Positions 40,268 through 63,386 of a stretch of DNA of 64,000 bases are shown here, piece after piece. Within the stretch, counting starts at the first letter, position 1. Every line of letters begins with the position of its first letter. The stretch covers positions 22,481 through 86,480 of the forward strand of contig NZ_LFIJ01000002.1 in NCBI RefSeq assembly GCF_001187555.1. Reading direction: 5' to 3'. The position numbers and the translations under genes are program-made. The stretch comes from Gilvimarinus polysaccharolyticus. GTDB taxonomy: Bacteria > Pseudomonadota > Gammaproteobacteria > Pseudomonadales > Cellvibrionaceae. Under the pieces are notes generated by a model. It did not search any database. It saw only the letters and a list, made by a program, of their open reading frames with translations, and was not told the DNA's origin.

Positions 40268-43200
40268 ATGCGAAATAACAATAAACTCGCGAATGAAATA
40301 GTTAAAAAGCACAGCTTTAAACGATCTGTTTTGGTCAGCGCTATTGCCGCCGCTTCATGCGTAAGCGCAGCCCAAGCACAGGAAGAGCAAACACAAAACT
40401 CGGCCAATGAAACGCCAATAGTGGAAGAGGTTATCGTACAAGGCACTCGTGCCACGATCCAAACCACCATCGACATTAAACGCAGCTCCACCACCATCGT
40501 CGACGGTATGTCCGCTAACGATATCGGTGACATGCCTGCGCTATCGATTGGTGAAGCACTTGAGTCCATTACCGGCGCATCATCGCATCGTGAAAACGGC
40601 GGCGCGACCGAGATTTCTATTCGTGGCCTTGGCCCCTACCTAAGCGCAACCACCTTTAATGGGCGCAACGCCACTAACGGTAGCGGTGACCGCTCAGTTA
40701 ACTTCTCGCAGTTTCCGTCCGAGCTGGTTAACAAAGTTGCTATTTATAAGACCCAAGATGCCAGCCTGATCGAAGGCGGTGTGGCAGGGTTAATTGCGAT
40801 AGAAACCGTTAAGCCGCTTGATTTTAATAAGCGCCGCCTGCAAATCGAGGCGAAAGCCGGCATTCAGCCTAACCAACAAAATATCAGCGATTCTATGTCC
40901 GGTGATATCGGCTTTCGCGGCAGTGTTAGCTACGTTGATCAGTTTGAGTTTGATAACGGCTCGGCATTAGGCATTTCATTGGGCTATGAGCAAAGCGATA
41001 TTGCTCAGCCAGAATCCGAGATGCGCGCCTCCAGCCCCAGCGGTACCTCACTGTTTGCTTGCATTAACGATCCTAATGTCACCGACCGAGGCTACTACCT
41101 CAGCTCCGCCGGCGATTGCGAAGATCCAACTAGCGGCCCATCCAATTCTGGTGGCTATAACACCGAAATTAACCCCGAGACCGGCAAAGCCTACAGTGAC
41201 GGCAGTCCTTACGCATTTGCCCCAAGCTCTAACGGCTACCGCCAAAACGACACATCGGATGAGCGTGAAGCATTTTTTGCCGCCGTACAGTTCCAGCCCA
41301 ATGACAAAATAGACATTAACCTTGATTACCAGCAATCCGAGCGTATTCAGGCAGAAAAGCGTCACGACTTAAACTTCGCCAATATGAAGCGCGTAACTCC
41401 AGGCGTTACGGCGGAGAATTTAGTCGTAACCGATACCGGCGCCATTACCAACTGGATGGGCGAAACAGCCATTGAGTCGAACAGCGAGCTATACCGTCGC
41501 AACGAAGACTATACCGGTTACGGTTTAAACATCGCATATGACGTTAGCGATAATTTAACCGTTTCTGCCGATTACTCTTTTTCTGAAACCGAACGCGTCG
41601 AGCACCAGCTGTTGCTTCGCACCCAGTCTGATGACCGCAATGTTTTCGCCGAGCTTAACTCGCAGTATCGCCCCATGGTGCAATGGGATACCGACTCAGG
41701 CATTCGTCAGTACCAAATCACCGATTTCGACATTACCGATCATACTCTATTCTCGGATCGCTACCGTGCACGTATCGATAGCGATGTCGATCGTACTAAC
41801 ACCATCGAAGCCTTCCGTGCAGACTTTGATTTACGTTTAGATGGTGGCGCTATTACAGGGATTAAAGGTGGTGTTCGGGTCTCCGAGCTTGAATATCTCG
41901 ACATGGGACCAACCGCTCGTAATGAATTTGAAGTTACCATCGGCGAGCACGAGTTTTTAGCCGAAGTAAACCAAACCTGTGCTATCGACTTTCCCGAAAG
42001 CAACTTTATGTCCTCTGAGCGCGACGGCGCATTGTTCACCATCGTTGATGAGCAAGGCAATGTCACCAAAGCGGTGAACAGCTGGGCCACATTCGACACC
42101 GCCTGCGCTGTGTCGATGTTAGCCGACTTCACTGGGGAATCAATGGAATTCCCAGAAATGCCGGAGTCATTGGCCGGTGTTACCGACGTCACTGAGACGA
42201 CCAAGGCGGCCTACATTATGGCCGACTTCGACAGCCAGCTAATGAACAAAACGGTTAGAGGTAATTTTGGTCTTCGCGTGGTACAAACCGACGTAGAGTC
42301 CATTGGCTACCGCACGCCTTACACCATCGCCACCTCTGATTCTGACATCCTCTCTTTAGTGCCCGTTGACGGCGCCGACCTTGAACGCGTAGAAGCCGGC
42401 GGTGACTACACTGAAGTTCTGCCAAGTTTTAACCTGATCGTCGACCTAACCGATGACCTTATGTTACGCGGTGCGATTTACCGTGGCCTGTCGCGCCCCG
42501 AGCCGGCCGACATGAGCTATCAGCGCGGCTTTACCGTCAGCAGTGAAGAAGACATCACCCAACTGGATGAGCTGATTCAAAACGTGAGTGGCGACGGCAA
42601 CCCGAACCTGCAACCGTTAACCTCTTGGAGCTTTGACACCGCCATCGAGTGGTACCCAAATCAAGACACCCTGTTGGCACTTGGCATTTACCACAAGAAG
42701 TTCCAAGGTGGATTTGATACAACTCGCGTGACCGAACAGTTCAATATTGATGGGGTAACCGTACCCGCCCAGTTTGACCTAACTCAAACTAACGACGAAA
42801 CCAGCAATCTGACGGGTTTTGAAGTTACCGCGACTCACAACCTCTCTTACCTACCAGGTTTTTTAAGCGGCTTTGGTGTTAAAGCGAGCTATAACTACGC
42901 TGACTCTGACTTTGAATTTGAAGACAGTAATTACGGCGACATCACTGTTCGCGACGAAGACGGAAATGTTGTCTCGCAATCCGAAGGAATCGTCGCGCCC
43001 GCTAACGTTCCTGGCTTTTCTAACCACGTATTCTCAAGCCAGCTGTATTACTCGGTAGGCGACTTTGATGCTAACTTGATCTACAAGTATCGCAGTGAAT
43101 ACTTCCAGCCTTACACCAGCAATGGCACCCGCTTACGCTACGTAGGTGACACCGGTGTGTGGGAAGCGCGCATGTCTTACTACATCACCGATAATATTCG

Positions 43201-43330
43201 CTTGAGCTTAGAAGGTATTAACCTGTTTGATGAACCCAAACAGCAATACTTTTACTCCAACGACAATTTGGGTGAAGTTAACAGCTACGGCCCTCGCGTC
43301 TTCTTTGGCGTAAAAGCTAAGTTCCTTTAA
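40268..43330 (+). CDS. TonB-dependent receptor, probably for alginate oligosaccharides
   Basis: 1020 residues. The signal peptide runs to about residue 38 (SCVSAAQAQ). The plug domain starts with IVEEVIVQGTR and contains MPALSIGEALESITGASS and ISIRGLGPYLSATTFNGR. A 22-strand outer-membrane beta-barrel follows, ending in YGPRVFFGVKAKFL with the terminal aromatic needed for insertion. CTGGAGGAAGAC precedes the ATG. Substrate is inferred from position among alginate lyases. It shows the long-receptor form common in Cellvibrionales and is oriented opposite to the second receptor. Confidence 0.93.
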   Translation: MRNNNKLANEIVKKHSFKRSVLVSAIAAASCVSAAQAQEEQTQNSANETPIVEEVIVQGTRATIQTTIDIKRSSTTIVDGMSANDIGDMPALSIGEALESITGASSHRENGGATEISIRGLGPYLSATTFNGRNATNGSGDRSVNFSQFPSELVNKVAIYKTQDASLIEGGVAGLIAIETVKPLDFNKRRLQIEAKAGIQPNQQNISDSMSGDIGFRGSVSYVDQFEFDNGSALGISLGYEQSDIAQPESEMRASSPSGTSLFACINDPNVTDRGYYLSSAGDCEDPTSGPSNSGGYNTEINPETGKAYSDGSPYAFAPSSNGYRQNDTSDEREAFFAAVQFQPNDKIDINLDYQQSERIQAEKRHDLNFANMKRVTPGVTAENLVVTDTGAITNWMGETAIESNSELYRRNEDYTGYGLNIAYDVSDNLTVSADYSFSETERVEHQLLLRTQSDDRNVFAELNSQYRPMVQWDTDSGIRQYQITDFDITDHTLFSDRYRARIDSDVDRTNTIEAFRADFDLRLDGGAITGIKGGVRVSELEYLDMGPTARNEFEVTIGEHEFLAEVNQTCAIDFPESNFMSSERDGALFTIVDEQGNVTKAVNSWATFDTACAVSMLADFTGESMEFPEMPESLAGVTDVTETTKAAYIMADFDSQLMNKTVRGNFGLRVVQTDVESIGYRTPYTIATSDSDILSLVPVDGADLERVEAGGDYTEVLPSFNLIVDLTDDLMLRGAIYRGLSRPEPADMSYQRGFTVSSEEDITQLDELIQNVSGDGNPNLQPLTSWSFDTAIEWYPNQDTLLALGIYHKKFQGGFDTTRVTEQFNIDGVTVPAQFDLTQTNDETSNLTGFEVTATHNLSYLPGFLSGFGVKASYNYADSDFEFEDSNYGDITVRDEDGNVVSQSEGIVAPANVPGFSNHVFSSQLYYSVGDFDANLIYKYRSEYFQPYTSNGTRLRYVGDTGVWEARMSYYITDNIRLSLEGINLFDEPKQQYFYSNDNLGEVNSYGPRVFFGVKAKFL

Positions 43331-43895: not shown

Positions 43896-46877
43896 TTAAA
43901 ACTTATAGCTGGCGCCAACAGTGATACGACGATCGGTGAGGCCTTGATAACAAAGCATAGCACCATCATTCACGCAGTATTGGTTAACCTCAGACTTGGT
44001 CAAGTTAACACCTTCGATGCCGATGTTTAACTGATCGGTAACATCGTAAGAGATACTTGCATTAAGCTGACCACGGTCGCCCTGAACCACTGGGAAGCCC
44101 CATGGGTAGCTTGAAGTACTACCAAAGTCTTCCGAGCGATACGCTTCACGCCAAGTGTAACGAAGACGTGCAGAGATACCGTGCTTCTCGTAGTAAGTGG
44201 TAATGTTGTAAGCGTTTTCAGACAAGTCCAATAGCGCCTGCTTAAAGGTCACATCAGTAAGGCCAGAAGTCGCCTCAAACACATCAGATGCTCGGCTAGT
44301 AGCGTCGTTTACAGTATCGCCACCAGAGAACTCCTGCCAAGTGTAGTTAGCCATAAAACCAAAACCAGAACCCCAACCCAACACATCTTCGAAGTCAGCT
44401 AAATCGTACTGAAAGGCAAGCTCGATACCTTTCTGAGTAGTTTCGGCATCATCATTGATGGTGGTTGATCTTGGTACACAGATGCCAGAACCTTGGTTAG
44501 CATCTGACGCCAATACGTTGCGGTCAGCAATTGGGTTCCAAATACCGCCACTGGCACAAGTCTGATCGTTGATTTCACGATAACCGTTGGCATCCAATGG
44601 AGCATCTTCGGTTTGCGCACGGTGCAAGTTAGTACGCTTCTTCTCAAAGTAACCAATGCTGGCTACGGCAGAAGGTGCAAAGTAGTATTCCGCCGAGATA
44701 TCAAATGACTCTACCTCTTCTGGCTGTAAGCCTGGGTTACCAATAGTTACCGCAGGGTTTGGACTGGTGCTGTAGCTAGTAGAGGTAGACAGAGCGGTGA
44801 AGCCCGCACGGTTAATATCTTGGCTATAGCCTGCACGAAGAACTAAGTCATCGGTAATGTTGGCCACCACGTTAATACGTGGCAACAAGAAGTCATAATC
44901 ACCTTTGTAGGTAACCAACTGCTCTTCACCATCCAAAGAAGAAATACCAGTTGAAGCCACTTCTGATTCGACGTAACGGAAACCAGCATTACCACGGAAG
45001 ATACCGTACTCAAAGTTTGCTTGAGCATAAAGCGCGTGAGTTTCTTCTGAAATATCGAAGAAGCTATTAGTTTCTGAAGAAGGCGTGCTTAAAAGCTTCT
45101 TATCGTCTTCCGCTAAACCGGCCTGATGCGCGGCAGTAGCGTCGATAAGAGTCTGCATAGTGCCTTCAAAATCTGAAGCAATCAGCTCTGGGTTAACCAT
45201 CAGGAAGTCGGCAATATAAAGATCGCGACCGTCGCCATCACCAAAGTTATCAGGACCTGCAGTCATCAACTCAGAAAAACTGCTAGCGCGTGCCGAGTGA
45301 ATCATGCTGCTGTAACCAACGTTCACGCCGGCATCTTCGTTCAAGCTAGATGCTTCGCTATAACGGTAGCCGAAATCAACAGTAGTGATGCCGCCAGCAC
45401 TTACGTCGAAGGTAAAGTCCGCACGGAAAGCGTCTTCTTTGTTTTCGGCAAAGTCGTTAGCAACTTCAAATGCATCCAACACATAGTTGTCTGCATTCAA
45501 CATATCTTCACGGGTTGGTGCATTAGCAGTGCCATAAGCAATACCGAAAGCCAAACCATCACGCAGATCGTACTCAAAAGGTACAGCGTTATCATTACCG
45601 CCACCCGCATCCAAAGGTGCGTTAGGGTTAATAAAGTTAAGCGTGGTGTTGATGCGTGGGTTAACGGTCGTCGACTTAGAGCGAGCAACCTCTACAGTAC
45701 CGGACAATCGACCAGCTTCCCAGTCGGTTCCCAAGCGAAGAATTTCACTTTCGGTATTGCGAGAGTCAGTGTCTGTTGAGATACGCAAGTTTGGATCGTC
45801 ATCGTCGTGGGCAATATTAACGCCAATAACACCTACTTGTGCCGCCTTAATGGAACCTAAGTCTTGAGAACCGTTTTCACCAGGGAGCACACCAAAATCG
45901 ATATCCTGGAAGTGAGTAGGCGTAGAGGTTTGCAACATCGCACTAACACCAGAAGCCTGGGCGCGGTAGCTTTCTTCTTTAACATCTTGATCGTTTAAAA
46001 TTGCATCGGCGTAGATTTTTACGCTGTCATTAGGTGCCCACTCAAACGCACCAGAAAAGTTAGTGGTTTCGTATTCAAAGCTTTCAGCTTGTTGAATTAA
46101 GAACTGCACCGGAAGAAAGTCAAACGATTGGGCGCTAGGGTAGCCGCTATCGGAGGCAACCAAGTTATCCAAATCAACGCGTGGGCGGAAGTTAGAAACA
46201 TCTTGTTCGGCGTAGCTCGCACTAATCACAAAGCCCATATCACCGGCACTGGTTTCCCAGTTGTTACCAAAGGTGCCAGAAATTCGTGGCGTAAGCGTAC
46301 TGTCAGTCGCCAGGCTGCTGTTTTCACCTTGGACGCGGACCGAACCGAGCATCTCTTTAAGCTCAAGTGGTCGAATTGTTCTTAGGTTGATAGTACCGCC
46401 AACCGAGCCTTCAATGGTCTTGGCATCTGGTGCTTTGGTTACTTCAACAGCCGCAATAATTGCAGCAGAAACATCTTCAAAGTCGATACCGCCACGACCA
46501 CCACCAGAACCCACAGTAGATACGCCGTTGATTTCAGTGCGGTTAGCGTTAGTACCACGAATCTGAACGCCAGTACCTACACCACCGGTACGAGTGATCT
46601 GAACACCAGGAACGTTTTCGAGTACTTCGGCTAGGTTTTGGTCGGGCAATTTACCAATATCTTCCGATTTAATAACTTCGATAAGGTTATCTGATGCACG
46701 TTTTTCTTGGATAGCGCTTTCAAGAGAGGCGCGAATACCTGTTACCACCACCTCTTCTATTACCGCTGATTCTTGTGCAACAGCAACTTGGGCAAACGTC
46801 AGTGCTGACGCGGTCATCATTGCGCCACTGATAGCCGCAATAGCTTTAGATAAATTAGTTTTTTTATAGTCGCTCAC
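43896..46877 (-). CDS. TonB-dependent receptor, probably for alginate oligosaccharides
   Basis: 993 residues. Signal to about residue 34 (FAQVAVAQ), then IEEVVVTGIRASLESAIQEK and a plug with SEDIGKLPDQNLAEVLENVP and VQIRGTNANRTEINGV, the classic form of the large Cellvibrio/Caulobacter-type carbohydrate receptors. A beta-barrel follows, ending in RRITVGASYKF. It has its own promoter (46932-46961) 55 bases upstream and its own terminator. Substrate is inferred from the surrounding lyases and the promoter shared with PL6 genes. Confidence 0.94.
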   Translation of the reverse strand: MSDYKKTNLSKAIAAISGAMMTASALTFAQVAVAQESAVIEEVVVTGIRASLESAIQEKRASDNLIEVIKSEDIGKLPDQNLAEVLENVPGVQITRTGGVGTGVQIRGTNANRTEINGVSTVGSGGGRGGIDFEDVSAAIIAAVEVTKAPDAKTIEGSVGGTINLRTIRPLELKEMLGSVRVQGENSSLATDSTLTPRISGTFGNNWETSAGDMGFVISASYAEQDVSNFRPRVDLDNLVASDSGYPSAQSFDFLPVQFLIQQAESFEYETTNFSGAFEWAPNDSVKIYADAILNDQDVKEESYRAQASGVSAMLQTSTPTHFQDIDFGVLPGENGSQDLGSIKAAQVGVIGVNIAHDDDDPNLRISTDTDSRNTESEILRLGTDWEAGRLSGTVEVARSKSTTVNPRINTTLNFINPNAPLDAGGGNDNAVPFEYDLRDGLAFGIAYGTANAPTREDMLNADNYVLDAFEVANDFAENKEDAFRADFTFDVSAGGITTVDFGYRYSEASSLNEDAGVNVGYSSMIHSARASSFSELMTAGPDNFGDGDGRDLYIADFLMVNPELIASDFEGTMQTLIDATAAHQAGLAEDDKKLLSTPSSETNSFFDISEETHALYAQANFEYGIFRGNAGFRYVESEVASTGISSLDGEEQLVTYKGDYDFLLPRINVVANITDDLVLRAGYSQDINRAGFTALSTSTSYSTSPNPAVTIGNPGLQPEEVESFDISAEYYFAPSAVASIGYFEKKRTNLHRAQTEDAPLDANGYREINDQTCASGGIWNPIADRNVLASDANQGSGICVPRSTTINDDAETTQKGIELAFQYDLADFEDVLGWGSGFGFMANYTWQEFSGGDTVNDATSRASDVFEATSGLTDVTFKQALLDLSENAYNITTYYEKHGISARLRYTWREAYRSEDFGSTSSYPWGFPVVQGDRGQLNASISYDVTDQLNIGIEGVNLTKSEVNQYCVNDGAMLCYQGLTDRRITVGASYKF

Positions 46878-47323: not shown

Positions 47324-47350
47324 ATCTGCCCCCGCAGAGCGAGGGCAGAT
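47324..47350 (-). terminator. terminator of the VCBS lipoprotein gene
   Basis: ATCTGCCC and GGGCAGAT arms with an inner CGC/GCG pair, followed on the minus strand by TTTTATTTT, 26 bases past the stop. Confidence 0.88.
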
Positions 47351-47376: not shown

Positions 47377-49185
47377 TTACTCTTGTCCGACGACTACTTC
47401 AGCGCTGTTGCTGTGGTAGATCGAATCAGCGTTCACGTCTGGGTCCAATGAATCACCAACGCCGTAAGCTTCAAAGTCATCCTCAAACACTACCGCTGTA
47501 CCCGCAAGGTCAGAGAACACTTTGACATCATCAACGCTATAAACCGCCGTAGGAATCGTTGAACCATTATCACCAAACTTAAAGATAATATATTCAACAC
47601 CTTCCATAACCTCAGATGGCGAAGATGATGCCGATGCAAATGGGTCAACGGTCACGCTTACACCATTAATGGTAATGGTAAGCATGGGCGTGGTGCTGGC
47701 ATCGGCAGCGGATGCATCCCAAGTTACTTCCACGTTGTTCCACACATCTGGGGCGTAAGGAACCGCCACATCAATACCGTCTTGATCGCGAATAGCGTAT
47801 TTATCCGCTTGAATCCGCAAATCAACAATAGCTTTACTGGTGCTGGTAGATGAGCCAAACAAGCCAATATAAGCATCTTTAGCGCTGCCATCGGCGGTTT
47901 CAGCATTGTCATCTTTTAAGAAAGCGACTGACAACTTACCTTTCTCAATAGCTGAGTCGAATTTATAGCGCAACTCACCAGCATCATCGATCATGTTGTC
48001 GGTGATTTTTGCTATTTTATTTCCGGCATTGCCCGGACCTGTCCCGCCACCAGTGCCACCACCTGAACCTTGCTCTTCCGTGACCGACACACTTGCCACG
48101 ACCACTTCAGCGGTATTGTTGTGATAGACCGAGGCCGCGTCTTCTTCTGGATCAAGTGAAGCGCCTACCGTGTAGCTTTCAAAATCATCTTCAAACGCCA
48201 ACGTCGCCCCGTCTTTATCAGAGTAAACTTTAACGTTATCAACATAGAAAGCCGCATGAGGAATCGTTGAGCCGTTATCACCCAATTTAAACACTAGCGT
48301 CTCAACACCACCTTGAACGGTGGTCGGAATAGATGACGCCGACGAGAACGGCTCGGTAGTTACACTGACACCATTAATCGTAATGGTGACAAGCGGAGTG
48401 ACTGAGTCGGAGGCGCCAGAAGCATCCCAGGTCATTTCCACATCGGTCCACTCACCGGGAACAAACGGAATATCCACATCGATACCGTCTTGATCGCGAA
48501 TGACATATTTGTCAGCCTGGATACGCAAATCAACCATCGCTTGACTGGTGCTAGTTGACGAGCCGTACAGACCTATATAGGCGTCTTTAGCTGTGCCATC
48601 TTCGGTTTCCGCTTTATCATCTTTCAAGAAAGATAAAGTCAATTTACCCTGAGATATTGCTTCACCAAACTTATAGCGTAGCTCACCGGCATCGTCGATC
48701 ATGTTATCGGTAATTCTTGCCGCTTGAGTGGTACTCACAACCGTATCAGCACCAGTAATGGTGATCTCTAAAGTCGCAGCCGTACCATCGGCAGACTGAA
48801 GCTCTACCGTATCCACGATCGAATCTTCCGCGCCGGACAAGGAAGCAACTGTGGTATCGGACGTGTCAAGAGAGTAGAGCCAAGAACCGTCAGCACTGAT
48901 CGAGAAGGTGCCATACATAGTGCTTTCATCGGTCAGCGGCTGAATCGTAGCTTCACCTGAGTCAGAGTCAGACACTGACACGGTTCCGGCCAAATCATCT
49001 TCGGTGCTATTGGTAATAGTCGCCGTCAAGTTTCCAAAAGTGGCCGGAGTATTAACGGCCGGAGTTGAACTTGAGCTGCTGCTACTGTTGGAGACATCTG
49101 GGACATCAAAAACATCATCGCCATCGCCCCCACAAGCTGCCAATGTTGCGGCCAATATAGACACAGTTAAAAGCTTCATCTTCAT
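47377..49185 (-). CDS. VCBS-type lipoprotein with tandem duplicated domain, candidate alginate-binding protein
   Basis: 602 residues. Lipobox LAAC gives Cys18, then a short Ser run. Residues 50-148 resemble a VCBS/cadherin-like repeat (GTVSVSDSDSGEATIQP, YGTFSISADGSWLYSLD). Two copies of a domain of about 208 residues follow, at 156-363 and 391-599, joined by a Gly-rich linker. Both contain ITDNMIDDAGELRYKF, DAYIGL.GSSTSTS and IRDQDGIDV, and end in FEDDFE.Y.VG. The repeats read as beta-sandwich carbohydrate-binding modules, but no family or catalytic motif is recognised. Position between a receptor and a PL6 gene suggests capture of alginate at the cell surface. It has its own terminator. The promoter is not found. 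Confidence 0.7.
   Translation of the reverse strand: MKMKLLTVSILAATLAACGGDGDDVFDVPDVSNSSSSSSSTPAVNTPATFGNLTATITNSTEDDLAGTVSVSDSDSGEATIQPLTDESTMYGTFSISADGSWLYSLDTSDTTVASLSGAEDSIVDTVELQSADGTAATLEITITGADTVVSTTQAARITDNMIDDAGELRYKFGEAISQGKLTLSFLKDDKAETEDGTAKDAYIGLYGSSTSTSQAMVDLRIQADKYVIRDQDGIDVDIPFVPGEWTDVEMTWDASGASDSVTPLVTITINGVSVTTEPFSSASSIPTTVQGGVETLVFKLGDNGSTIPHAAFYVDNVKVYSDKDGATLAFEDDFESYTVGASLDPEEDAASVYHNNTAEVVVASVSVTEEQGSGGGTGGGTGPGNAGNKIAKITDNMIDDAGELRYKFDSAIEKGKLSVAFLKDDNAETADGSAKDAYIGLFGSSTSTSKAIVDLRIQADKYAIRDQDGIDVAVPYAPDVWNNVEVTWDASAADASTTPMLTITINGVSVTVDPFASASSSPSEVMEGVEYIIFKFGDNGSTIPTAVYSVDDVKVFSDLAGTAVVFEDDFEAYGVGDSLDPDVNADSIYHSNSAEVVVGQE
47389..48015 (-). repeat. second copy of the duplicated domain
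   Basis: Encodes residues 391-599 of the VCBS lipoprotein. It aligns along its whole length with the copy at 48097-48720 and keeps the same motif order. Confidence 0.8.
48097..48720 (-). repeat. first copy of the duplicated domain
   Basis: Encodes residues 156-363 of the VCBS lipoprotein, the partner of the copy at 47389-48015. Many codons differ between the copies, so the duplication is not recent. Confidence 0.8.
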
Positions 49186-49266: not shown

Positions 49267-52005
49267 TCAGTCGCCCGACGCATGACTCACCAATCTAAAA
49301 CTATCAAAAATCGCCTCATCCTCTAAAGTTGGAGCGGTTTCATGGGTCAACTCGATATTGTCTATGCGTAACTCGTATTGTTTCCGAGCATCGCTATCTA
49401 GCTCAGCAGGAGAACCTGGATTATTAGCAATTAGTTCTGGATTAAATTTCGCGAACACCATCATGGAGGTACGATTGCCACTATTAAAAGTGGTTGTAGC
49501 TTGATAATAACTATCACTTGAAGATTCAGCAGCGCCGTTGTTTTTTAAATCGTCATAGTTGACCGACACTTCATGCAACACTTGTGTACCACCAGAATCT
49601 TTCACGCCAATACTGGCTGTCGAGCTTGCAACAGACTTTACGAGCAAATACATACTTAACGTATATTCGGTATTGGGAAGAATTCCATCGACCACCTGGT
49701 ACAGGCTCGGAGTGCTGCTTTCATCGGCCGCGTAACGATAACCTAACTTAGCCGAGCCGCTTGATGAATCATCAAATGCTGTATTGCTGGAGTTGCCTAC
49801 GTCACCCAGCCCTTGGGTTTCCTTCCCATCGCCCGAATTTTCCAGGGTTGTCCAACCAGTAGACAGATCCTCATCAAAATTAGCATTTACAATAGCCACA
49901 GATTTACGCAGCGCCATAGGCATACGAGCGATAATCTTTGCCTCAGTGTTATCACCGGAGTTAAAGGTAACCGAACGAAACTCAAAATCATTCGAGCTAT
50001 CCGTTGCCATGTGCTCACTTCCATCGTCCAACACTACGCCAAACTCGCCCGCACCTTTGACAAAAGCCGACAGGGTGTAAATAGTATTTTCCTGTAACGA
50101 TATGTTTTGAGTTAAGTTGCCAGTGCCGGAAACCACTGCCGAAAAGCCTCGCGAAAACACCTGATCACTGTCGCTGGAAACCTCTGTCGTGCCAGAAAAT
50201 ATCCAGCCATCGGCACCGTCATCAAAATCGTGATTGTTTATCGGATAACGAATCACATAGCCTTGACTATAGGGGGGCGTATAACTTTTAGGGCCAACCT
50301 GGGTAGCAGTGAGCGGAAAACGACTCACTGGGCTTAATGCAGGGTGATCGGCACCAACATAGGTATTGGATTCACGAGACTGACCATCCATGTCTTTATC
50401 CACATGATCAAAATCACCTGTGCTGGCCACTACCGCCCCCAAGTTAGGGCTATTTACACTTGGCCGCCATAAACCATCCTCGGCTTTAGCAAGTACGGCA
50501 TCAATAAAGTGAATACCCTCCACCGCACTTAAGTCGTCACTGTCCGAAAAGCTCTGCCCGTAAACAATATTCCCAGCTATTTCTGTATCACCGCCTGGCA
50601 TCCCGTCACTCGCCTGAGTCAAAACGGGTCCAATCGCATTGGCAATGAGATTATTAACTAGGTATACATCTTTAGGGTTTTTAGATTTTTTACCACCATC
50701 AACATTTAAACTATTAACACTATCAACAATCGTATTAAAACCAACATATACGTTTTCTAGCTGCTGATAACCACTATCGCTGGGACTGGAGTCCGCCCCC
50801 ATCAGAACAATGCCGCCGTGATGAGTGGTATTTTTATAGCGCACGCCTTCGATATAATTGTTAACAACTAAATGACCGTCGTCGATAAGGCGTATCCCCC
50901 CCGCATAAGGGTGATCATCGCCAATAATAAAATTATTGGCGATGATGGCATCCGCACCATGGCGAGTAGTAATAGAGCCATAGCTGTCACGAATGGTATT
51001 GTGAACAATGCTGTTATTGCCGGCTTTATTGGAAATCACCTCAGCCTCGGCATCTATTCTTTCAAAATAATTATGTGCCACCACAGAATAAGAGTCTGCG
51101 CTATGGCTAGTGCTTAAGCCTATCCGTACGGCTTCATATTCATTGTCGTCACTAGATGCGTACGCTTTACCCGCAGCCGGAGCTCTATCACCAAAATAAT
51201 TGTGGTCAATTTTTGCGTAATCTATTTGAGTGGTTGCCGGATCGGTATCGTCATCAATCCAACGATCCACCACCAACAGTGCACCACGCGAGGTTTTCCC
51301 CGCAAACCAGTTATGATCTATACGGGTGTACTCACCGTAATCGTAGATCCACTTAGTGTTGTTACCACTACCGGAATCCATGTCGACAATCGCGATTTCC
51401 GTTATACGACAATGGCTGCATACCGTACCGCCACCTAAGCGCGTTGCAATCATATTACTGTTAGCGGTTTCGCCGCCTTTAAAAACAAAACCTTGCAACA
51501 CCAAATAAGAGCCGCCCATCTGCACTTGCACTTCACCACCGATGATTACTTGACCGGGGTTCTCGGCGGCAATGGTAATAGGATTATCTGCCGAGCCATT
51601 ACCACCAAACGACAGCTCGAAGTCGGTGTATTCACCATCCGCCAGACACAGGGTCGTACCCGCTGTCATAGCTGTGCTCGCCGCACTTTTTAGCGCCGAG
51701 ACAGAATTAACCACTTGTGAACACTCAATACTCGGAACAGTGTCAGCATCGGTAAATTCACCGGCAACCGGCACATCATCGGCGTGAGAGGGGACGCTCG
51801 ACTGCATTGAGGAGCTGCTACTTTGTTGGCTGCTGGAACTAACATCAGACGACGCTAGCGAAGAAGAACTGGATGAGGTACCCGCAGAAGACGATGGTAA
51901 TGACGAACTAGAATTGCCGCCATTAGACGAATCTCCCCCACCAGAGCCACCGCAAGCGGCAACCATCATGGTTGATAGCATTAAAAAGCTTCTTACAACT
52001 CGCAT
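49267..52005 (-). CDS. PL6 alginate lyase lipoprotein with two C-terminal CBM16-like modules
   Basis: 912 residues from ATG 52005 (TTG 52011 is in frame). Lipobox MVAAC gives Cys18, followed by a Ser-rich stretch to about 72. A right-handed parallel beta-helix of the PL6/chondroitinase-B family spans 95-560. The catalytic pair is Lys327 (SNKAGN) and Arg348 (TTRHGA), 21 residues apart as in AlyGC. Two sandwich modules follow (about 585-690 and 700-890; NHDFDDGADGWIFSG and NANFDEDLSTGWTTLEN), like CBM16. It probably sits on the cell surface and cuts alginate or poly-MG blocks. It is transcribed from its own promoter 244 bases upstream. Confidence 0.9.
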   Translation of the reverse strand: MRVVRSFLMLSTMMVAACGGSGGGDSSNGGNSSSSLPSSSAGTSSSSSSLASSDVSSSSQQSSSSSMQSSVPSHADDVPVAGEFTDADTVPSIECSQVVNSVSALKSAASTAMTAGTTLCLADGEYTDFELSFGGNGSADNPITIAAENPGQVIIGGEVQVQMGGSYLVLQGFVFKGGETANSNMIATRLGGGTVCSHCRITEIAIVDMDSGSGNNTKWIYDYGEYTRIDHNWFAGKTSRGALLVVDRWIDDDTDPATTQIDYAKIDHNYFGDRAPAAGKAYASSDDNEYEAVRIGLSTSHSADSYSVVAHNYFERIDAEAEVISNKAGNNSIVHNTIRDSYGSITTRHGADAIIANNFIIGDDHPYAGGIRLIDDGHLVVNNYIEGVRYKNTTHHGGIVLMGADSSPSDSGYQQLENVYVGFNTIVDSVNSLNVDGGKKSKNPKDVYLVNNLIANAIGPVLTQASDGMPGGDTEIAGNIVYGQSFSDSDDLSAVEGIHFIDAVLAKAEDGLWRPSVNSPNLGAVVASTGDFDHVDKDMDGQSRESNTYVGADHPALSPVSRFPLTATQVGPKSYTPPYSQGYVIRYPINNHDFDDGADGWIFSGTTEVSSDSDQVFSRGFSAVVSGTGNLTQNISLQENTIYTLSAFVKGAGEFGVVLDDGSEHMATDSSNDFEFRSVTFNSGDNTEAKIIARMPMALRKSVAIVNANFDEDLSTGWTTLENSGDGKETQGLGDVGNSSNTAFDDSSSGSAKLGYRYAADESSTPSLYQVVDGILPNTEYTLSMYLLVKSVASSTASIGVKDSGGTQVLHEVSVNYDDLKNNGAAESSSDSYYQATTTFNSGNRTSMMVFAKFNPELIANNPGSPAELDSDARKQYELRIDNIELTHETAPTLEDEAIFDSFRLVSHASGD

Positions 52006-52555
52006 AAACAACCCACAATTTTAACTATTATTGTTATTACAACGACAAGCACAAACAGCTAAACCGTTCATGCTTTCCTTGTTCTCAACTGCTTATTGAT
52101 CAGCTAAAAAACTGCACCCAGCCAGCCAATCATTCCGTCATCTTAACGAATAGAGCAACACACTCAGGGTATCAACTAGACGTTAAACCAAAGCCTGCTG
52201 TTGCTATAAAGCCATTTGTCAGCGGTCAGCCCCGCTCACCAGACAACGACACTACCGAATTGACGACAGCATTGTCAACCGATTTGGAATACACAAAATA
52301 AACCAATATAGGGAAAACTTATGACACTAGGAGATATCCTTAAGTATCAAGGACTTATCAACGAGGGATTAGATACGATAAAATTCTGCGGCATCGCACG
52401 GCAAGACATAAACCGCCGAAAAAGCTTAATGAGGCAAAGCAAGCTGAAGCTTCACCAGAGATTCGCAAGAAAGAATCCCTCAGAAAGGGGACGCTAGCAC
52501 CGCCCACCTTGCTAGGTAAACGGCGCTTATTCAGGAAACTAAGGTCTGTGTGTTA
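52006..52555. other. regulatory region upstream of the PL6 lipoprotein gene
   Basis: 550 bases with no gene. It contains the promoter at 52249-52280. The right half (52330-52555) lies downstream of the PL7 stop, and I see no convincing terminator there for the long minus-strand gene run. Confidence 0.55.
52249..52280 (-). promoter_or_regulatory. promoter of the PL6 lipoprotein gene (shared motif)
   Basis: On the minus strand: GG, TTGACA (52278-52273), 18 bases, TAGTGT (52254-52249). Upstream is TGTATTCCAAATC, resembling TGTATTCAAAAT before the second receptor's -35. Confidence 0.65.
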
Positions 52556-53644
52556 TCAGTCTAAGGTAATGGACGAGAAGGTCGCCTGCGCATAGTGACC
52601 CGCTTGCGAATCTTCTGCCCAAACTCCCGAACCTGCACAGCCTGCGTACCACATGCCGTCCTGGTCTTTACTGCTGCATTGGTTGTAAGCACCGGCCTTA
52701 AAGTAAAACCAATCACCGCTGTAACCACGCGGGTTATCTAGCTCATCCACGTTACCGTTAGGATCTACATTGTTTGACAGATCTACCGAGTACTCAACTT
52801 TAGGGCGGCCCTCCGCCTCGAAGGTCAAATGCATCACATTACCCACCACATCAACGGTATAACTAAAGGGTTGATTAAGCTGAACACCCTGCTCTTTCGG
52901 GTCGTCCGCAGAATCCCAAAGGTTACCCCACACGGGGTACGCAATATCCGTGCGATTGGGATCATCTTTCGCTAGATTACGCTCATAAGTCCAAAATACA
53001 GAGCCATAATCATGATTGGGGAATTTTTTATAATATATCTTTAATGGCTCATTACCGTAGCCAAAACCTCGAGCCATTTTGTCATCTTTACCCGCATGTA
53101 TTTGCCCCACAACCACAGAGTAAGCAGGTTTTTTATTGGGGTTTTTAGCTTCTACGGCAACATGATTAACCGCTAAGGTTGCCGACAAGCGTCCACCAAT
53201 TGATCCATAACGAGACGCCTTAGAATGCGCCGCTAAAGCAAAGTTATTTCCTGGGGCTTTAGTTTTAGAGCCTGCAGGGTCAATCATTTGCCGCAGTTCA
53301 CTGCGAGTATTAGTGGAGCCTGATGTGGTTATGGCCTTATTCGGCGCGGTAAATACCACTCCCCCATCGTTAGCATAAAAAAACCGCGGTTCGAGTAACC
53401 GGCCAATATGGGGTGGCGCGACCTCATCGATTTTACCATCGCGATTGCTGTCCATTGGCAGGGTGATTTTCCAATGGGACAAATCCATAACTGAACCAGG
53501 TATTTTTTTTCCAATAAGATCCTCAGACTTAAAGGCTTCTTTCTCCATCGGCCCTTGGCATGCAGTCAGAAGTATAAAAGAGGACACTATTGCACAAGCG
53601 GCAATCGGTATAGTAGACACTGACTTTTTAAAGTTTATTATCAT
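52556..53644 (-). CDS. PL7 alginate lyase lipoprotein
   Basis: 362 residues. Lipobox LLTAC gives Cys29. A single PL7 jelly-roll domain with no binding module covers about 50-362. Family motifs are RSELRQM, VVGQIH and WFYFKAGAYNQC, so the catalytic residues are present. Extra Cys pairs near the C-terminus (NQCSS, YAGCAGS) suggest a disulfide. It is the last gene of the run, 43 bases after the fructose bisphosphatase gene, an odd place for a secreted enzyme and probably a sign of a single regulon. Confidence 0.93.
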   Translation of the reverse strand: MIINFKKSVSTIPIAACAIVSSFILLTACQGPMEKEAFKSEDLIGKKIPGSVMDLSHWKITLPMDSNRDGKIDEVAPPHIGRLLEPRFFYANDGGVVFTAPNKAITTSGSTNTRSELRQMIDPAGSKTKAPGNNFALAAHSKASRYGSIGGRLSATLAVNHVAVEAKNPNKKPAYSVVVGQIHAGKDDKMARGFGYGNEPLKIYYKKFPNHDYGSVFWTYERNLAKDDPNRTDIAYPVWGNLWDSADDPKEQGVQLNQPFSYTVDVVGNVMHLTFEAEGRPKVEYSVDLSNNVDPNGNVDELDNPRGYSGDWFYFKAGAYNQCSSKDQDGMWYAGCAGSGVWAEDSQAGHYAQATFSSITLD

Positions 53645-53687
53645 TTTTCACTCCCGTTAACGACACTACTTATAGATTTTAAAAACT

Positions 53688-55343
53688 TTATAGTTTATGA
53701 AAACACAACCTCAAATCGAGATCTTCCACAATAAACAAATGAGGTTTTCTACTATCAACAACCAACACCATACCGGCCGCACCAGTTAATGACCGGTAAG
53801 CTTTAGCAAAGCCACCATCAATACAGATTAACTGTCCCTGTGCATATATTGGCGATTCAGCATCTTTCAGTTTCACTGGAACATGACCATTAATTAACAC
53901 ACTTCTTTCATCGCCACTAAGCTCTTTAGCTACTTTTGCAACAAAATCTTGGTTGTTTCGAGCATCAAAATATGGGTTTTTTCCTTCCCGGTGGTAGTGC
54001 TTATCCTCAATAAAATAGCGTTCAAACGTTGTCATTTTATCGCGACCAAACAACGGCGAACTAGGGCCGCACCATAAATACCAAGCAATATCCGACAAGT
54101 ACTTACAGCTATTAGTATTGCGCCGCGAGTAAGCTTTTCTAAGCTGTAACTCTAAGGCATCAAATAACGCACGTCCTTTAAGCTCTCGATCATTCACACA
54201 AAACGGAATCGGCTCAAGGTTTTCATCAACAGGAAGGCAGCCGTGGCACATAGTGTAGCCATCGTCCGTCTCTAACAAGCCGCCATTGGCAAACAAGAAA
54301 TTTATATGTTTTTGCAACCGCTCCGAGCCAATAAATTGCAGTTTTAAATATTCTATTAGCTGCCATTCCTGTTCGGTCAATGAGGAGGTAGACTCTGGAT
54401 TAACCGTAGGGAATCGCGTATCAGACAAGACAACTGTATTACCCTGAAGGTTAATAGCCCCTGAGGTGAAGTCAACTTTGCTAAGCATGGCCCGATCAGC
54501 AAGAGAAAAATGGGGGTTGCGTTCGATGATTTGCTGCTCCAGCTTAAATTGCACAATCGCAATAGCTTTATGCATCATCGAGTAAGAGCGGCTAGAGAAT
54601 GCATCAGCATTACAACTAGAGACAAAATTTAAACAGGGATCATCAGAGTAATATTCTTCAGCCAGATCGGCCAAGCGGTTTAAACAAATACCATAGTCTT
54701 CGGTCAAAGTGCTGACATCGCCATACTTAAGGCATAAGCGCACTACCGTCGCAATGCACTCTAATGAACCAGATGCCGCCCCCATCCACAACACATCATG
54801 ATTACCCCACTGGATACTCACTGACGGCAGTGCCTCTAACTGTTCTAATATTTTCGCAGCATCTGGTCCTCTATCGTATATATCACCAACCACATACAAA
54901 CGATAGCGGATTAAAGCGGTAATCGCTTTGGCGATATAACGACACAGCTGCTCACGATCTTGATCGTCAAGCAAAGCAATCGCCTCCCGGCGCTGCTCAT
55001 CAAGTTCACCCGTTATAGCGTATTCATCTAATATATTTAAAAACCAGCTACAACTAGAAAACGTCTCAACTCCGACCGGCCAAAAACGACGATCCTGCTT
55101 AAAGTTAAGCAGGATCTCCATCATGGCAGTTAGGTTATTAAAATGTTCAAGATTATCCGCAGAAGGCAAGCTTTCACCCAGCAAATAATGACGCAAAGCC
55201 TCTAACGGAGCCTTGGGGTTGCGAGCAACATACTCATCAATCAGCGTTTCGACCACAGCAAAACGCTGCCGCACCAAGGATTCAAACATATCCCCCTGGC
55301 CATGCAAGTCAGATATAAAAACTTTATAGGGCGTTGTTGACAT
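53688..55343 (-). CDS. class III fructose-1,6-bisphosphatase
   Basis: 551 residues with the metallophosphatase core: SDLHGQGD (Asp12, His14), GDIYDRGPD starting at 153 and GNHDVLWMG at 180-188. Long insertions are typical of the Firmicutes-type class III enzyme (Bacillus Fbp, about 670 residues), here somewhat shorter. It hydrolyses fructose-1,6-bisphosphate to fructose-6-phosphate, the committed gluconeogenic step, in the cytoplasm. It lies 23 bases after fbaA in the alginate run. Class III enzymes are not the usual one in gammaproteobacteria, so transfer into the locus is possible. Confidence 0.88.
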   Translation of the reverse strand: MSTTPYKVFISDLHGQGDMFESLVRQRFAVVETLIDEYVARNPKAPLEALRHYLLGESLPSADNLEHFNNLTAMMEILLNFKQDRRFWPVGVETFSSCSWFLNILDEYAITGELDEQRREAIALLDDQDREQLCRYIAKAITALIRYRLYVVGDIYDRGPDAAKILEQLEALPSVSIQWGNHDVLWMGAASGSLECIATVVRLCLKYGDVSTLTEDYGICLNRLADLAEEYYSDDPCLNFVSSCNADAFSSRSYSMMHKAIAIVQFKLEQQIIERNPHFSLADRAMLSKVDFTSGAINLQGNTVVLSDTRFPTVNPESTSSLTEQEWQLIEYLKLQFIGSERLQKHINFLFANGGLLETDDGYTMCHGCLPVDENLEPIPFCVNDRELKGRALFDALELQLRKAYSRRNTNSCKYLSDIAWYLWCGPSSPLFGRDKMTTFERYFIEDKHYHREGKNPYFDARNNQDFVAKVAKELSGDERSVLINGHVPVKLKDAESPIYAQGQLICIDGGFAKAYRSLTGAAGMVLVVDSRKPHLFIVEDLDLRLCFHKL

Positions 55344-55366
55344 CTATGCGCCACTCACTGAATAAA

Positions 55367-56440
55367 TTAAAAAACACTTTCACAATTAAGCTGACGGCAG
55401 ATATCAGTCAATTTTGACGAGAACCCTTCCTCGGCTTTACGCAGCCAAACTCGAGGGTCATAGAACTTTTTATTCGGAACATCGGAGCCCTCTGGATTGC
55501 CAATTTGAGCACAGAGATAATCCTTGCGGTCCTCATAAAACTCACGCACACCAGACCAGTACGCCCACTGTAAATCAGTATCGACATTCACCTTAATAAC
55601 ACCGTACTCAATCCCCAGTGCGATATCTTCAGCAGATGAACCGGAACCGCCGTGAAATACAAAGTCTATCGGGTTGTGGCCCAAAGCAAATTTTTTGCTT
55701 ACATAATCCTGAGATTCTCTTAAAATTTCAGGCCGAAGAATGACATTGCCAGGAGAATAAACTCCGTGAACGTTACCAAATGAAGCCGCAATAGTGAACT
55801 TGTCACTAATTTGACTGAGTTTTTCATGGGCATAAGCAACCTCAGAAGGTTGAGTGTACAAACGCGATGAATCTATATCTGTATTATCAACCCCATCTTC
55901 TTCGCCGCCGGTTACCCCGAGCTCAATCTCCAGAGTCATTCCTATTGCACTCATACGCTTAAGGTACTCGCAGCATGTTGCAATATTGTCCTCTAATGAC
56001 TCTTCCGACAAATCGATCATATGCGATGAAAATAATGGCTTTCCATATTGCTTAAAGTACTGCTCTCCCGCATCCAGCATCCCGTCAATCCACGGCAGAA
56101 GCTTACGTGCGGCATGATCAGTGTGAAGCATTACATGAGCGCCATAACTAGGCGCCATAGAGTGAACATGTAGTGCCGCCGAAACAGCGCCTTTAATCGA
56201 ACCTTGGTGATTCGAATTGCTAACTGACTTGCCACCATAGAAAGCGGCACCGCCATGAGACAGCTGAATAATAATCGGAGCACTCAGCTCCGCCGCAACA
56301 GCCATAACGCTATTAGCCGTGCTTGAACTGGTAATATTTACGGCGGGCAATGCCATCCGTTGCGCTTTGGCGTAAGAAAAAGTCTCAGCGACTGCGTCGC
56401 CGAGAATAACATTTTCAGGTAGGGTTAATTTATTAATCAT
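55367..56440 (-). CDS. fbaA: class II fructose-bisphosphate aldolase
   Basis: 357 residues from ATG 56440 (the frame opens further up at 56503 without a ribosome site), matching E. coli FbaA in length. The zinc/catalytic motif LHTDHA has Asp108 and His109. SFGNVHGVYSPGNV and the phosphate-binding FVFHGGSGS follow. It condenses glyceraldehyde-3-phosphate and dihydroxyacetone phosphate to fructose-1,6-bisphosphate, or the reverse. Next to a bisphosphatase and after kdgK, it probably works in the gluconeogenic direction during growth on alginate. It is not a KDPG aldolase, which belongs to another family. Confidence 0.93.
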   Translation of the reverse strand: MINKLTLPENVILGDAVAETFSYAKAQRMALPAVNITSSSTANSVMAVAAELSAPIIIQLSHGGAAFYGGKSVSNSNHQGSIKGAVSAALHVHSMAPSYGAHVMLHTDHAARKLLPWIDGMLDAGEQYFKQYGKPLFSSHMIDLSEESLEDNIATCCEYLKRMSAIGMTLEIELGVTGGEEDGVDNTDIDSSRLYTQPSEVAYAHEKLSQISDKFTIAASFGNVHGVYSPGNVILRPEILRESQDYVSKKFALGHNPIDFVFHGGSGSSAEDIALGIEYGVIKVNVDTDLQWAYWSGVREFYEDRKDYLCAQIGNPEGSDVPNKKFYDPRVWLRKAEEGFSSKLTDICRQLNCESVF

Positions 56441-56483
56441 GGACAACTCTCTTGTGGATTGTTGGATACTAGAGCTAAATTCA

Positions 56484-57410
56484 CTAAAAGCTGGGCATTT
56501 CACTTTCAGCTATAATTGCGCCCTTATGCTGTATCACCGTTGAGGCCAGGATATGGCCTTTCATCGCAGCACTTTGCTGACTTTCGCCTCGTGAGCGAAA
56601 GTGCAGATAAGCTGCATTAAACGAGTCCCCTGCCGAAGTGGTATCAACCACTTCAACTCGGCGCCCTGTCACCATTGCTCGGGTTTCACCATCGTCAACA
56701 CAGCAGCCGTCCGCACCCATTTTGAGGATGATTTCTCGGGCACCGCATTGACGTATTCTGTCAATCACTGCATCTTTATCGGCGTCGCCATAAAGCATCG
56801 ACTCATCATCGATGGTCGGCAAAGCTATATCACTAATGGCATAAGCTCTGTTAAACGCCTGTTGCGCATCATCGGTGTTGCACCATAAAACCGGACGATA
56901 GTTCCCGTCAAAGACAATTTTCTTGCCCGTCGACTGCAAGCTTTCTAACAGTGCAAAAAGTCTTTCGCGAGATGGCTCATCAAGTACAGCCAAGCTAATT
57001 CCCGACAAATAAATAAAATCAAAGTCAGACAGTTTCGTCATAAGCTGTTGCTGCTTAACATCACTGTCTAAAATGTATTTTGCTGCAGAATCGTTGCGCC
57101 AGTAAATAAAATGGCGCTCGCCAGACCCATCGTTACTGATATGATAGATACCTGGTCGCTTGCTTGTATCAACTTGCACTAAGCGAGTATCTACGCCATT
57201 TTTTTGCCACTGAGCAATCATCCAACGACTTACTTGATCGTCACCCATTGCAGTCACAAAGCTGGCTTTACTGCCAAGCCTAGCCAAATAAATGGATGTA
57301 TTTAGAGTATCCCCTCCATAGCCCATAACCGCCGATATTTTTTCGATATCGCTGGACAAGCTACCACTGGAAATCTCCAGCATGCATTCGCCAATAGCTG
57401 CAATGTTCAC
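56484..57410 (-). CDS. kdgK: 2-keto-3-deoxygluconate kinase
   Basis: 308 residues from GTG 57410, with GAGG upstream. It is a PfkB-family sugar kinase: N-terminal GECMLEIS and GYGGDTLNTSIYLARLG, and the catalytic signature DTTSAGDSFNAAYL with its Asp base. It phosphorylates KDG to KDPG. Placement directly after the DEH reductase gene supports this substrate. It begins 23 bases after an intrinsic terminator, so its expression depends on readthrough or a hidden promoter. Confidence 0.92.
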   Translation of the reverse strand: MNIAAIGECMLEISSGSLSSDIEKISAVMGYGGDTLNTSIYLARLGSKASFVTAMGDDQVSRWMIAQWQKNGVDTRLVQVDTSKRPGIYHISNDGSGERHFIYWRNDSAAKYILDSDVKQQQLMTKLSDFDFIYLSGISLAVLDEPSRERLFALLESLQSTGKKIVFDGNYRPVLWCNTDDAQQAFNRAYAISDIALPTIDDESMLYGDADKDAVIDRIRQCGAREIILKMGADGCCVDDGETRAMVTGRRVEVVDTTSAGDSFNAAYLHFRSRGESQQSAAMKGHILASTVIQHKGAIIAESEMPSF

Positions 57411-57433
57411 AAACTACCTCTTTAATAAAAAAA

Positions 57434-57456
57434 AGACCCGAGCGTTACTCGGGTCT
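57434..57456 (-). terminator. internal terminator between DEH reductase and kdgK
   Basis: AGACCCGAG - CGTTA - CTCGGGTCT, followed on the minus strand by eight Ts. The form is complete for an intrinsic terminator and it splits the gene run. Confidence 0.88.
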
Positions 57457-57469
57457 AATAAGCGGACGA

Positions 57470-58222
57470 TTAAGAAAACAACAAGCCGCCATTAACATCC
57501 ATATTCAACCCGGTCAGGAACGAAGCTTCATCCGAGGCCAAATAAGCAACAACGTCTGCCACTTCATCTGGGGCACCTTCGCGACGCAAAGGTGTCGCGC
57601 CGGCAACATTTGTGCGTGCTTCATTTTTGGTAAAAGTATCGTGAAAGGTTGTACTAATCATACCAGGGCACAATGAGTTCACACGAATACCCTGAGGGCC
57701 CAGCTCTTTCGCCATAGATCGAGTAAAGGTCATAACGGCCCCCTTTGCCGTGGCATAAGCAGAGGCTCCTGGGCCACCACCATCGCGTCCAGCCTGTGAT
57801 GAGAAGTTTATAATCGATCCGCCTTTGCTCATATGAGGAACGACATACTTAGTCATCAAGAAGGTACTGGTTAGGTTTAAGCGAACCACAAAATCAAAAA
57901 ATTCTGGATCCATCTCATTAAGAGTTTTACGCTCGACCAAGCCACCTGCAACGTTCACCAAAATATCAATTTTTTCGCCAAAAGCTTCTTGTGTTTTAGC
58001 AACAAGATCTTGCACTTGCTCGGGCTTCGTCATATCACCACGAACCAAAATTGCCTCGGCTCCCAGCGCTTTTACTTCGCTCAAAGTACTCTCGGCTTGT
58101 TCTTGGCTGCCGTAGTAATTGATTACCAACTTAGCGCCTTCTTTGGCAAGCTTTACAGAAATAGACCGGCCGATGTCACGTGCACCCCCGGTAATGATGC
58201 AAACACGATTTTGAAGCTTCAT
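57470..58222 (-). CDS. SDR-family reductase, probable DEH reductase
   Basis: 250 residues, a short-chain dehydrogenase with the cofactor motif TGGARDIG at 11-18, the NAG-like VNVAGG, and the active site Ser141/142, Tyr156 and Lys160 (YATAK). Its context between kdgF and kdgK, and likeness to alginate-pathway reductases, point to reduction of 4-deoxy-L-erythro-5-hexoseulose uronate (DEH) to 2-keto-3-deoxygluconate with NAD(P)H. The residues after beta-2 (NYYGSQ) suggest NADPH, which is uncertain. It is cytoplasmic. A terminator follows the gene. Confidence 0.88.
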   Translation of the reverse strand: MKLQNRVCIITGGARDIGRSISVKLAKEGAKLVINYYGSQEQAESTLSEVKALGAEAILVRGDMTKPEQVQDLVAKTQEAFGEKIDILVNVAGGLVERKTLNEMDPEFFDFVVRLNLTSTFLMTKYVVPHMSKGGSIINFSSQAGRDGGGPGASAYATAKGAVMTFTRSMAKELGPQGIRVNSLCPGMISTTFHDTFTKNEARTNVAGATPLRREGAPDEVADVVAYLASDEASFLTGLNMDVNGGLLFS

Positions 58223-58361
58223 ATATACCTACCTAAAGACCAATTAGTGATTTCTATTAAAAGGGCCTTTTCTTGCCATCCAAACAGAGGCTTTAACAAA
58301 GACAAGGGAGCCCGCACCTATAAATATTAGCTATAAAGACTCTACAGCAATCAAGCTCGGT

Positions 58362-58709: not shown

Positions 58710-58773
58710 TTTTATCACCCGTTACTTTTAAAAATTTAAATATCCGCACCTGCCATGTGAGCGGCCGCAACAA

Positions 58774-60933: not shown

Positions 60934-60939
60934 AGCAAA

Positions 60940-63150: not shown

Positions 63151-63386
63151 ATCAATCACACCACACATTCGCTCAAAAGAAATTGGCCGAGTCCTAGCGA
63201 AGAGCCCAAGCCAAGAAGAGTCACACTCAGAATCAGCTATACACTGACGGCCAGCTTGGGACCAAACTCACACTGCTGGCTTAAAAATGATGCAGAGGCC
63301 TCCAAACTTCGGCGCCGCCCAGACACAGGTCATGCTTCGCAGGCCAAACTCAAACGGTAAGTTTCCACATCAAAATTTCTGACAAC

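Follow-up and report, generated by a model that had tools for sequence, protein, structure and literature searches.

SusD and the other surface glycan-binding proteins of Bacteroidota are lipoproteins whose genes adjoin that of a TonB-dependent receptor within a polysaccharide locus. The accessible text of two reports on alginate loci of Proteobacteria describes SusC-like receptors but no SusD (PMC7874173, PMC8286568), and a third reports none in the alginate locus of a Microbulbifer (PMC11678492). How such SusD-less Proteobacteria capture alginate for the receptor is the question on which the protein family described here bears, as it offers named and testable candidates spanning Gilvimarinus, Colwelliaceae, Alteromonadaceae, and Shewanella. 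The alginate-binding modules CBM13, 16, 32, 96, and 113, as presented in PMC9971899 and PMC13235733, are appended to alginate lyases, often in tandem; the latter also cites two further alginate-binding proteins (Mei 2020, 2024), which lie outside the comparison made here. A supplementary figure legend on the alginate clusters of Alteromonas sp. 76-1 lists HP genes of unknown function (PMC6431674), which might or might not belong to the present family. In titles and abstract openings of the open-access literature, no paper on this type of protein or its LamG-like domain was encountered, and papers combining alginate with VCBS did not, by the same measure, concern alginate loci.

Architecture and surroundings of P0001

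The window, that is, the whole analysed stretch of 64,000 nucleotides from Gilvimarinus polysaccharolyticus, contains an alginate gene set around the gene of a 602-aa protein, P0001. The features are as follows (coordinates of the window):

40268..43330, plus strand: TonB-dependent receptor 1 (TBDR1), recognised by a Pfam match; its relatives adjoin the domain protein in many other loci
43896..46877, minus strand: TonB-dependent receptor 2 (TBDR2), next gene downstream of P0001 on the same strand (TIGR01782, 501.8 bits; PF00593)
47324..47350, minus strand: terminator-like stem-loop (12 pairs, 8 G-C) just 3′ of the P0001 gene, consensus match only
47377..49185, minus strand: coding sequence of P0001, a 602-aa lipoprotein with a VCBS and two further domains
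47383..48036, minus strand: LamG-like copy 2, residues ~384–601 (copy alignment, HMM boundaries; AlphaFold2 pLDDT 96.7 for residues 380–602)
48025..48078, minus strand: Gly-rich low-confidence linker between the copies, residues 370–387 (pLDDT <50)
48091..48741, minus strand: LamG-like copy 1, residues ~149–365 (copy alignment, HMM boundaries, full-length AlphaFold2 model)
48718..48987, minus strand: VCBS domain, residues 67–156 (TIGR01965, E 4.5e-18)
49132..49185, minus strand: lipoprotein signal peptide with lipobox LAAC and Cys18 (from the sequence)
49267..52011, minus strand: PL6-type lyase with CBM_4_9, next gene upstream of P0001 (PF14592, E 5.7e-69)
52556..63168, minus strand: remaining alginate set, comprising PL7, FBPase_2, class-II aldolase, PfkB kinase, SDR, a PL17-like gene (PF07940 and PF05426), and a second PL6

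The original prediction had described an unrecognised lipoprotein, with a VCBS-like domain and two copies of a second domain, encoded between a receptor and a PL6 gene, and these points were borne out. The minus-strand open reading frame is real and begins with the lipobox region MKMKLLTVSILAATLAAC, in which LAAC occupies residues 15–18, as is characteristic of bacterial lipoproteins, followed by a Ser-rich stretch. C18 is invariant in a 25-row alignment of full-length relatives, and the lipobox pattern is shared by 65 of the 74 domain-bearing proteins (with four truncated ones set aside). The VCBS match to TIGR01965 reached 65.2 bits against an NCBIfam cut-off of 15.5. The two copies of the second domain share 144 of 211 residues (68%) in an ungapped alignment (E 1e-100), and the HMM boundaries of copy 1 are close to residues 156–363, where it had been placed originally. 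When the whole protein was compared with the 3.74-Mb genome at E≤0.01, the one match was P0001 itself. No Pfam family scored above its cut-off on P0001, and phmmer retrieved no PDB chain at E≤1.

The minus-strand genes follow the order PL6, PL17-like, SDR, PfkB kinase, class-II aldolase, FBPase_2, PL7, PL6 with CBM_4_9, P0001, and TBDR2, while TBDR1 and a PL7 gene with an F5/8 domain are divergent from them. Since an 81-bp gap separates the P0001 gene from the upstream PL6 gene, and about 500 bp with the terminator-like 12-pair stem lie before TBDR2 (five such stems were found in the scanned stretch vs. 2.9 ± 1.8 in shuffles), the P0001 gene of the window seems to share a transcript with PL6 and not with the receptor. 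The alginate set also includes, at 53688–56503 on the minus strand, genes of a Firmicute-type fructose-1,6-bisphosphatase (PF06874) and of the class-II aldolase (PF01116). Relatives of both recur in other alginate loci of the same genus (L032, L033, L035, L036, and L038), which suggests that gluconeogenesis may be coupled to alginate breakdown.

Fold and kinship of the repeated domain

The single domain was modelled by AlphaFold2 as a 223-aa segment (residues 380–602) from 64 rows, namely the window copy and 63 relatives of <80% identity drawn from 158 copies. The model is an all-beta sandwich of high confidence (pLDDT 96.7, pTM 0.93), while the full-length prediction from 25 rows (pLDDT 84.0, pTM 0.46, with low confidence at residues 1–42 and 370–387) depicts P0001 as beads on a string. 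Foldseek comparison of the domain model with the PDB gave 83 matches at E≤0.001 (best E 2.6e-5). The best 50 of these were mostly ConA-like jelly rolls (lectins, glucanases, sialidase CBMs, and alginate lyases); query TM-scores were 0.31–0.51 save for one, identities were 7–18%, and a clostridial toxin fragment and a viral spike (probability 0.60) were among a few odd rows. The predicted fold and these matches agree with the jelly roll of the LamG/ConA-like superfamily. The second-best match (E 4.3e-5) was to the X122 domains of Teredinibacter turnerae (PDB 8q28, 8q29, and 8q2a), jelly rolls of unknown function for which the accessible text of PMC10916295 reports neither a clear enzymatic activity nor significant binding to plant cell walls; they differ in that they are set in redox proteins and share only 11–12% identity with the domain (query TM 0.42–0.47).

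Sequence profiles pointed in the same direction. The domain profile found two weak matches in the PDB, the better one being a Neurexin-1 chain (E 0.19), and 20 of the 64 single domains matched Laminin_G_3 (PF13385) at E≤0.01, a count in which family cut-offs were not applied. Copy 2 of the window, by itself, matched no Pfam family at E≤0.01, PF13385 included. By hhalign, the domain family is homologous to the C-terminal tandem repeats of three large proteins (L043–L045; probability 99.2%, E 1.4e-19, 154 columns). The L044 repeats pass the Laminin_G_3 cut-off (29.1 bits vs. 27.6), and those of L044 and L045 pass that of Sialidase-like_CBM (PF22585). On the strength of the fold, the Foldseek results, the Laminin_G_3 matches of relatives, and the homology to these repeats, we regard the domain as a divergent LamG-like, CBM-type domain. 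The likeness to PF13385 and PF22585 thus consists in the beta-sandwich jelly roll and in homologous repeats that pass the cut-offs, whereas the window copies match neither family, no close solved structure was retrieved, and the C-terminal ~40 residues of the domain (DDFE-Y…EVVV) fall outside the profile match. The earlier statement that the domain matches no family consequently holds for the single sequence, which had no Pfam, NCBIfam, or PDB match, but not for the family as a whole. The suggestion of a new binding-module family fared well, as neither Pfam nor NCBIfam returned a model specific to it, yet the module is a divergent member of the LamG/ConA-like group; P0001 likewise differs from the known alginate-binding CBMs in having no Pfam match to any CBM family.

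The large proteins with two or three C-terminal LamG-like repeats are encoded at L043:9551–12277, L044:9216–11849, and L045:6670–10158. A PF14099 polysaccharide lyase domain was matched in those of L043 and L044 but not in the L045 protein; the L043 and L045 genes lie near TBDR1-like receptors, and L043 also beside an esterase-like gene. The C-terminal DDFE-Y strand of the domain resembles the N-terminal DFES strand of these repeats. A circular permutation was rejected, as rotation brought no real gain (124.9 vs. 122.7 unrotated; eight shuffled controls 122.3–129.3, reversed control 122.2). A PLAT identity was also rejected: the P0001 match is sub-threshold (E 0.024), and at E≤0.01 PLAT was hit by a single one of the 64 members. 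The PLAT cut-off is passed by the L070 protein (25.7 vs. 23), and we take the PLAT matches to reflect a shared beta-sandwich character.

Occurrence with alginate lyase and receptor genes

A non-exhaustive pattern scan across the genomes of 84,980 species yielded 150 candidate stretches, of which 76 loci were confirmed and all 76 were examined. At least two domain copies are present in 69 of them. The smallest form is a single-domain 325-aa lipoprotein encoded directly upstream of PL7 in Cellvibrio (L094), two-copy proteins of ~580–830 aa occur, for example, in Gilvimarinus, Thalassotalea, and Colwellia, and three- or four-copy proteins of ~1,190–1,440 aa in Glaciecola, Rheinheimera, Shewanella, and Woeseiaceae, among others. 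A tree built from 47 copies includes six Gilvimarinus proteins, whose first copies form a well-supported group (100/99) and whose second copies form a less firm one (87/91), both inside a 12-row Gilvimarinus group (99/98). These separate groups imply that the copy pair arose before these species diverged. In several other lineages, each protein's copies cluster with one another. Such proteins go under the names “VCBS domain-containing protein” or “hypothetical protein” in the annotated plasmid records examined.

Lyase genes were sought within 10 kb of the domain gene. Whole-protein queries might count matches confined to CBM32 or CBM_4_9, so the queries were restricted to the catalytic parts, and this repeat gave the same counts. 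A PL6-, PL7-, or PL17-like gene was present in 56 of the 76 loci, a TBDR1/2-like receptor in 54, and at least one of the two kinds in 66, counts that are non-independent because some genomes are related. The corresponding figure for control regions was 0/20, the controls being 20 evenly spread 20-kb stretches of five domain-positive genomes of the family, not of the genomes of the 76 loci; in an earlier control run an SDR match occurred in one of 20 regions and a lyase or receptor match in none. The neighbourhood survey proposed originally thus revealed co-occurrence with alginate genes in other loci.

The domain is also fused to a PL6 enzyme (L070), to PL7 enzymes (L079 and L083, the latter also by Pfam), and to a PF05426 alginate lyase (L078). 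These fusion loci come in addition to the 66 with a nearby lyase or receptor. The fusions agree with the description of a CBM as a discrete domain appended to carbohydrate-active enzymes, and the domain itself is presumably non-catalytic; it may represent a new alginate-binding module family common to PL6, PL7, and PF05426 enzymes. In Neiella holothuriorum (L070:4699–13234), two giant domain-bearing proteins are encoded side by side, one fused to PL6 and CBM_4_9, while the other was matched by the whole PL7–CBM32 protein of the window and not by its catalytic part. Six loci (L059, L062, L071, L089, L100, and L119) showed neither a nearby alginate lyase or TBDR1/2-like receptor nor a fusion. 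In L059 the domain gene is followed by a different plug-domain receptor, the L071 and L089 contigs are 4.6 and 6.8 kb long, and the L071 contig, called Rhodothermales, may be mis-binned.

Among 144 genomes of the family, 13 are domain-positive and 11 of these have PL7, against 28 of the 131 domain-negative ones (Fisher p 9e-6, a value that overstates independence because seven of the 13 belong to one genus). An eighth member of that genus (G043) gave no match for the domain, PL7, PL6, or TBDR1, and another genome (G012) contains the domain with no PL7 or PL6 match. Taken as a whole, the module family is widespread and appears tied to alginate use, and the searched libraries contain no model dedicated to it.

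A TBDR1/2-like receptor gene directly adjoins the domain gene, on the same strand, in 40 of the 76 loci. As one locus has a receptor on each side, there are 41 adjacent receptors, of which 34 are relatives of TBDR1 (41–53% identity) and seven of TBDR2 (27–75%). In 34 loci this same-strand receptor lies immediately 5′, with gaps of 26–899 bp, at most 189 bp in 31 of them. In ten loci a receptor was found but no alginate lyase within the surveyed distance; the contigs of three (L046, L102, and L108) are ~6 kb long, and one (L106) has a PF14099 lyase next door. Each of ten genomes picked for holding the domain has one TBDR1 orthologue (52–54% identity) among 12–54 first-look candidates.

The reverse comparison gave a different picture. 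TBDR1 was found at E≤1e-150 in 36 of the 144 family genomes, 24 of which had no domain match (E≤1e-3, window copy as query), and the domain gene adjoined TBDR1 in only one (L144) of 12 fetched TBDR1 loci. Four of the 12, L144 included, came from the order to which G156 (Aestuariibacter) belongs, where a draw on 148 genomes gave eight matches, G156 itself and three of 36–37% identity being left out; of the eight other genomes, three (G122, G003, and G019) hold the domain elsewhere. These results rule out an obligate receptor partner. Because the pair was missing from 24 of 36 genomes and 11 of 12 fetched loci, TBDR1 appears either to need no domain protein beside its gene or to use another partner.

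Proposed role of P0001

Considering the gene context and the predicted fold, we hold it probable, with some reserve, that P0001 is a non-catalytic, lipid-anchored alginate-binding protein. The lipid would anchor the protein, and the Ser-rich stalk and VCBS spacer would hold the sandwich domains off the membrane, where the two LamG/ConA-like domains could bind alginate chains with avidity, as the retention of at least two copies in 69 of the 76 proteins suggests. The bound polymer or oligomers would then be kept near the PL6/PL7 lyases, whether secreted or anchored, and the TonB-dependent alginate receptors, with which P0001 might also be in physical contact. Alginate is the best-supported ligand, and since conserved Asp and Glu accompany the invariant Arg87 of the domain, a calcium-bridged contact to uronates is possible. 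The originally predicted role as a surface glycan-capture partner is favoured by the context, the lyase fusions, and the fold, which together fall short of proof; a surface alginate-capture lipoprotein remains the probable identity of P0001.

The original prediction had also raised a new lyase family, and a jelly-roll enzyme of this kind seems very improbable. It could be argued from the alginate lyases among the best 50 of the 83 Foldseek matches, which are presumably members of PL7, PL14, and PL36, and from the 64-row alignment, where Arg87 is invariant, Arg27 and Glu25 are near-invariant, and Asp/Glu residues are conserved (Arg27 and Arg87 as numbered in the 223-aa model). However, the query TM-scores to those lyases are only ~0.35–0.48, the domain has no conserved His (best column 21/64), and it is an appendage of three lyase types carried at least twice in most loci. 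The catalytic His and Tyr of PL7 enzymes lie within the RSELR, QIH, and YFKAG motifs; these are visible in the PL7 consensus, and no PL7-type catalytic motif was recognised in the domain. Descent from PL7 was ruled out by profile comparison, as hhalign gave a probability of 0.1% against an alignment from which the domain-bearing PL7 of L083 had been left out. A lyase role of the domain is accordingly unlikely on the predicted features, though weak catalytic activity is conceivable. There is equally little to be said for the view that P0001 plays no part in glycan handling and is a structural or calcium-binding lipoprotein of the VCBS type, to which the VCBS domain and the conserved Asp/Glu residues would be suited but which the lyase, fusion, and receptor associations render scarcely credible.

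Two other readings retain glycan binding. P0001 could be a surface adhesin to brown-algal walls or gels, binding alginate for attachment and not for receptor feeding; the VCBS spacer with repeats, the up to four copies in ~1,400-aa relatives, and the relatives outside lyase loci would suit such a role, but the receptor immediately 5′ in 34 of 76 loci and the alginate lyase fusions fit uptake and degradation better, and we consider it unlikely. Alternatively, the domain could bind a different anionic algal polysaccharide, or several such polymers, with the association with alginate being an enrichment only. This is rather improbable given that 56 of 76 loci contain alginate lyase genes, that fusions occur in further loci, and that PL7 co-occurs with the domain, while pointing toward it are the related repeats that L043 and L044 carry on PF14099 lyases whose substrate is unproven, the domain-positive genome with no PL7 or PL6 match, and a Catenovulum copy (L002) adjoining annotated sulfatase and fucosidase genes.

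If P0001 is an alginate-capture lipoprotein, as we favour, it likely serves the receptor much as a glycan-binding partner would, and is not a SusD homologue. SusD is mainly helical, whereas P0001 is modelled as all-beta and matches neither PF07980 nor PF14322, and its pairing with receptors lacks the constancy of SusD with SusC. The two SusD-like models were also without a match in the whole genome of G. polysaccharolyticus, in line with the earlier remark on a phylum that lacks SusD, but SusD_RagB (PF07980) occurs in 9 of the 144 family genomes and in 2 of 24 genomes carrying the domain (those given for 24 of the 76 loci). SusD is therefore not wholly absent from Cellvibrionaceae. As to a functional counterpart of SusD, the tight receptor–domain gene pairs speak for the idea, while the many receptors that have no domain protein, and the stem and ~500 bp in the window, speak against it. 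It is a tentative and doubtful proposal that marine Gammaproteobacteria replaced SusD at alginate receptors by unrelated tandem LamG-like lipoproteins, often in a two-gene unit with orthologous TBDR1, which would dock physically on it to hand over alginate.

Plasmids also carry distant relatives, in Vibrio penaeicida within a PL7/KdgM cluster and in Catenovulum next to a TonB receptor. The V. penaeicida protein (L003:11557–13287) has one distant domain copy and a Laminin_G_3-like domain below the cut-off; its cluster, in which four genes are annotated as PL7, includes a KdgM porin, with no TonB receptor annotated in the stretch. In Catenovulum adriaticum (L004:9259–12966), two distant VCBS-type relatives are encoded in tandem directly after the TonB receptor and possibly form a paralogous capture pair.
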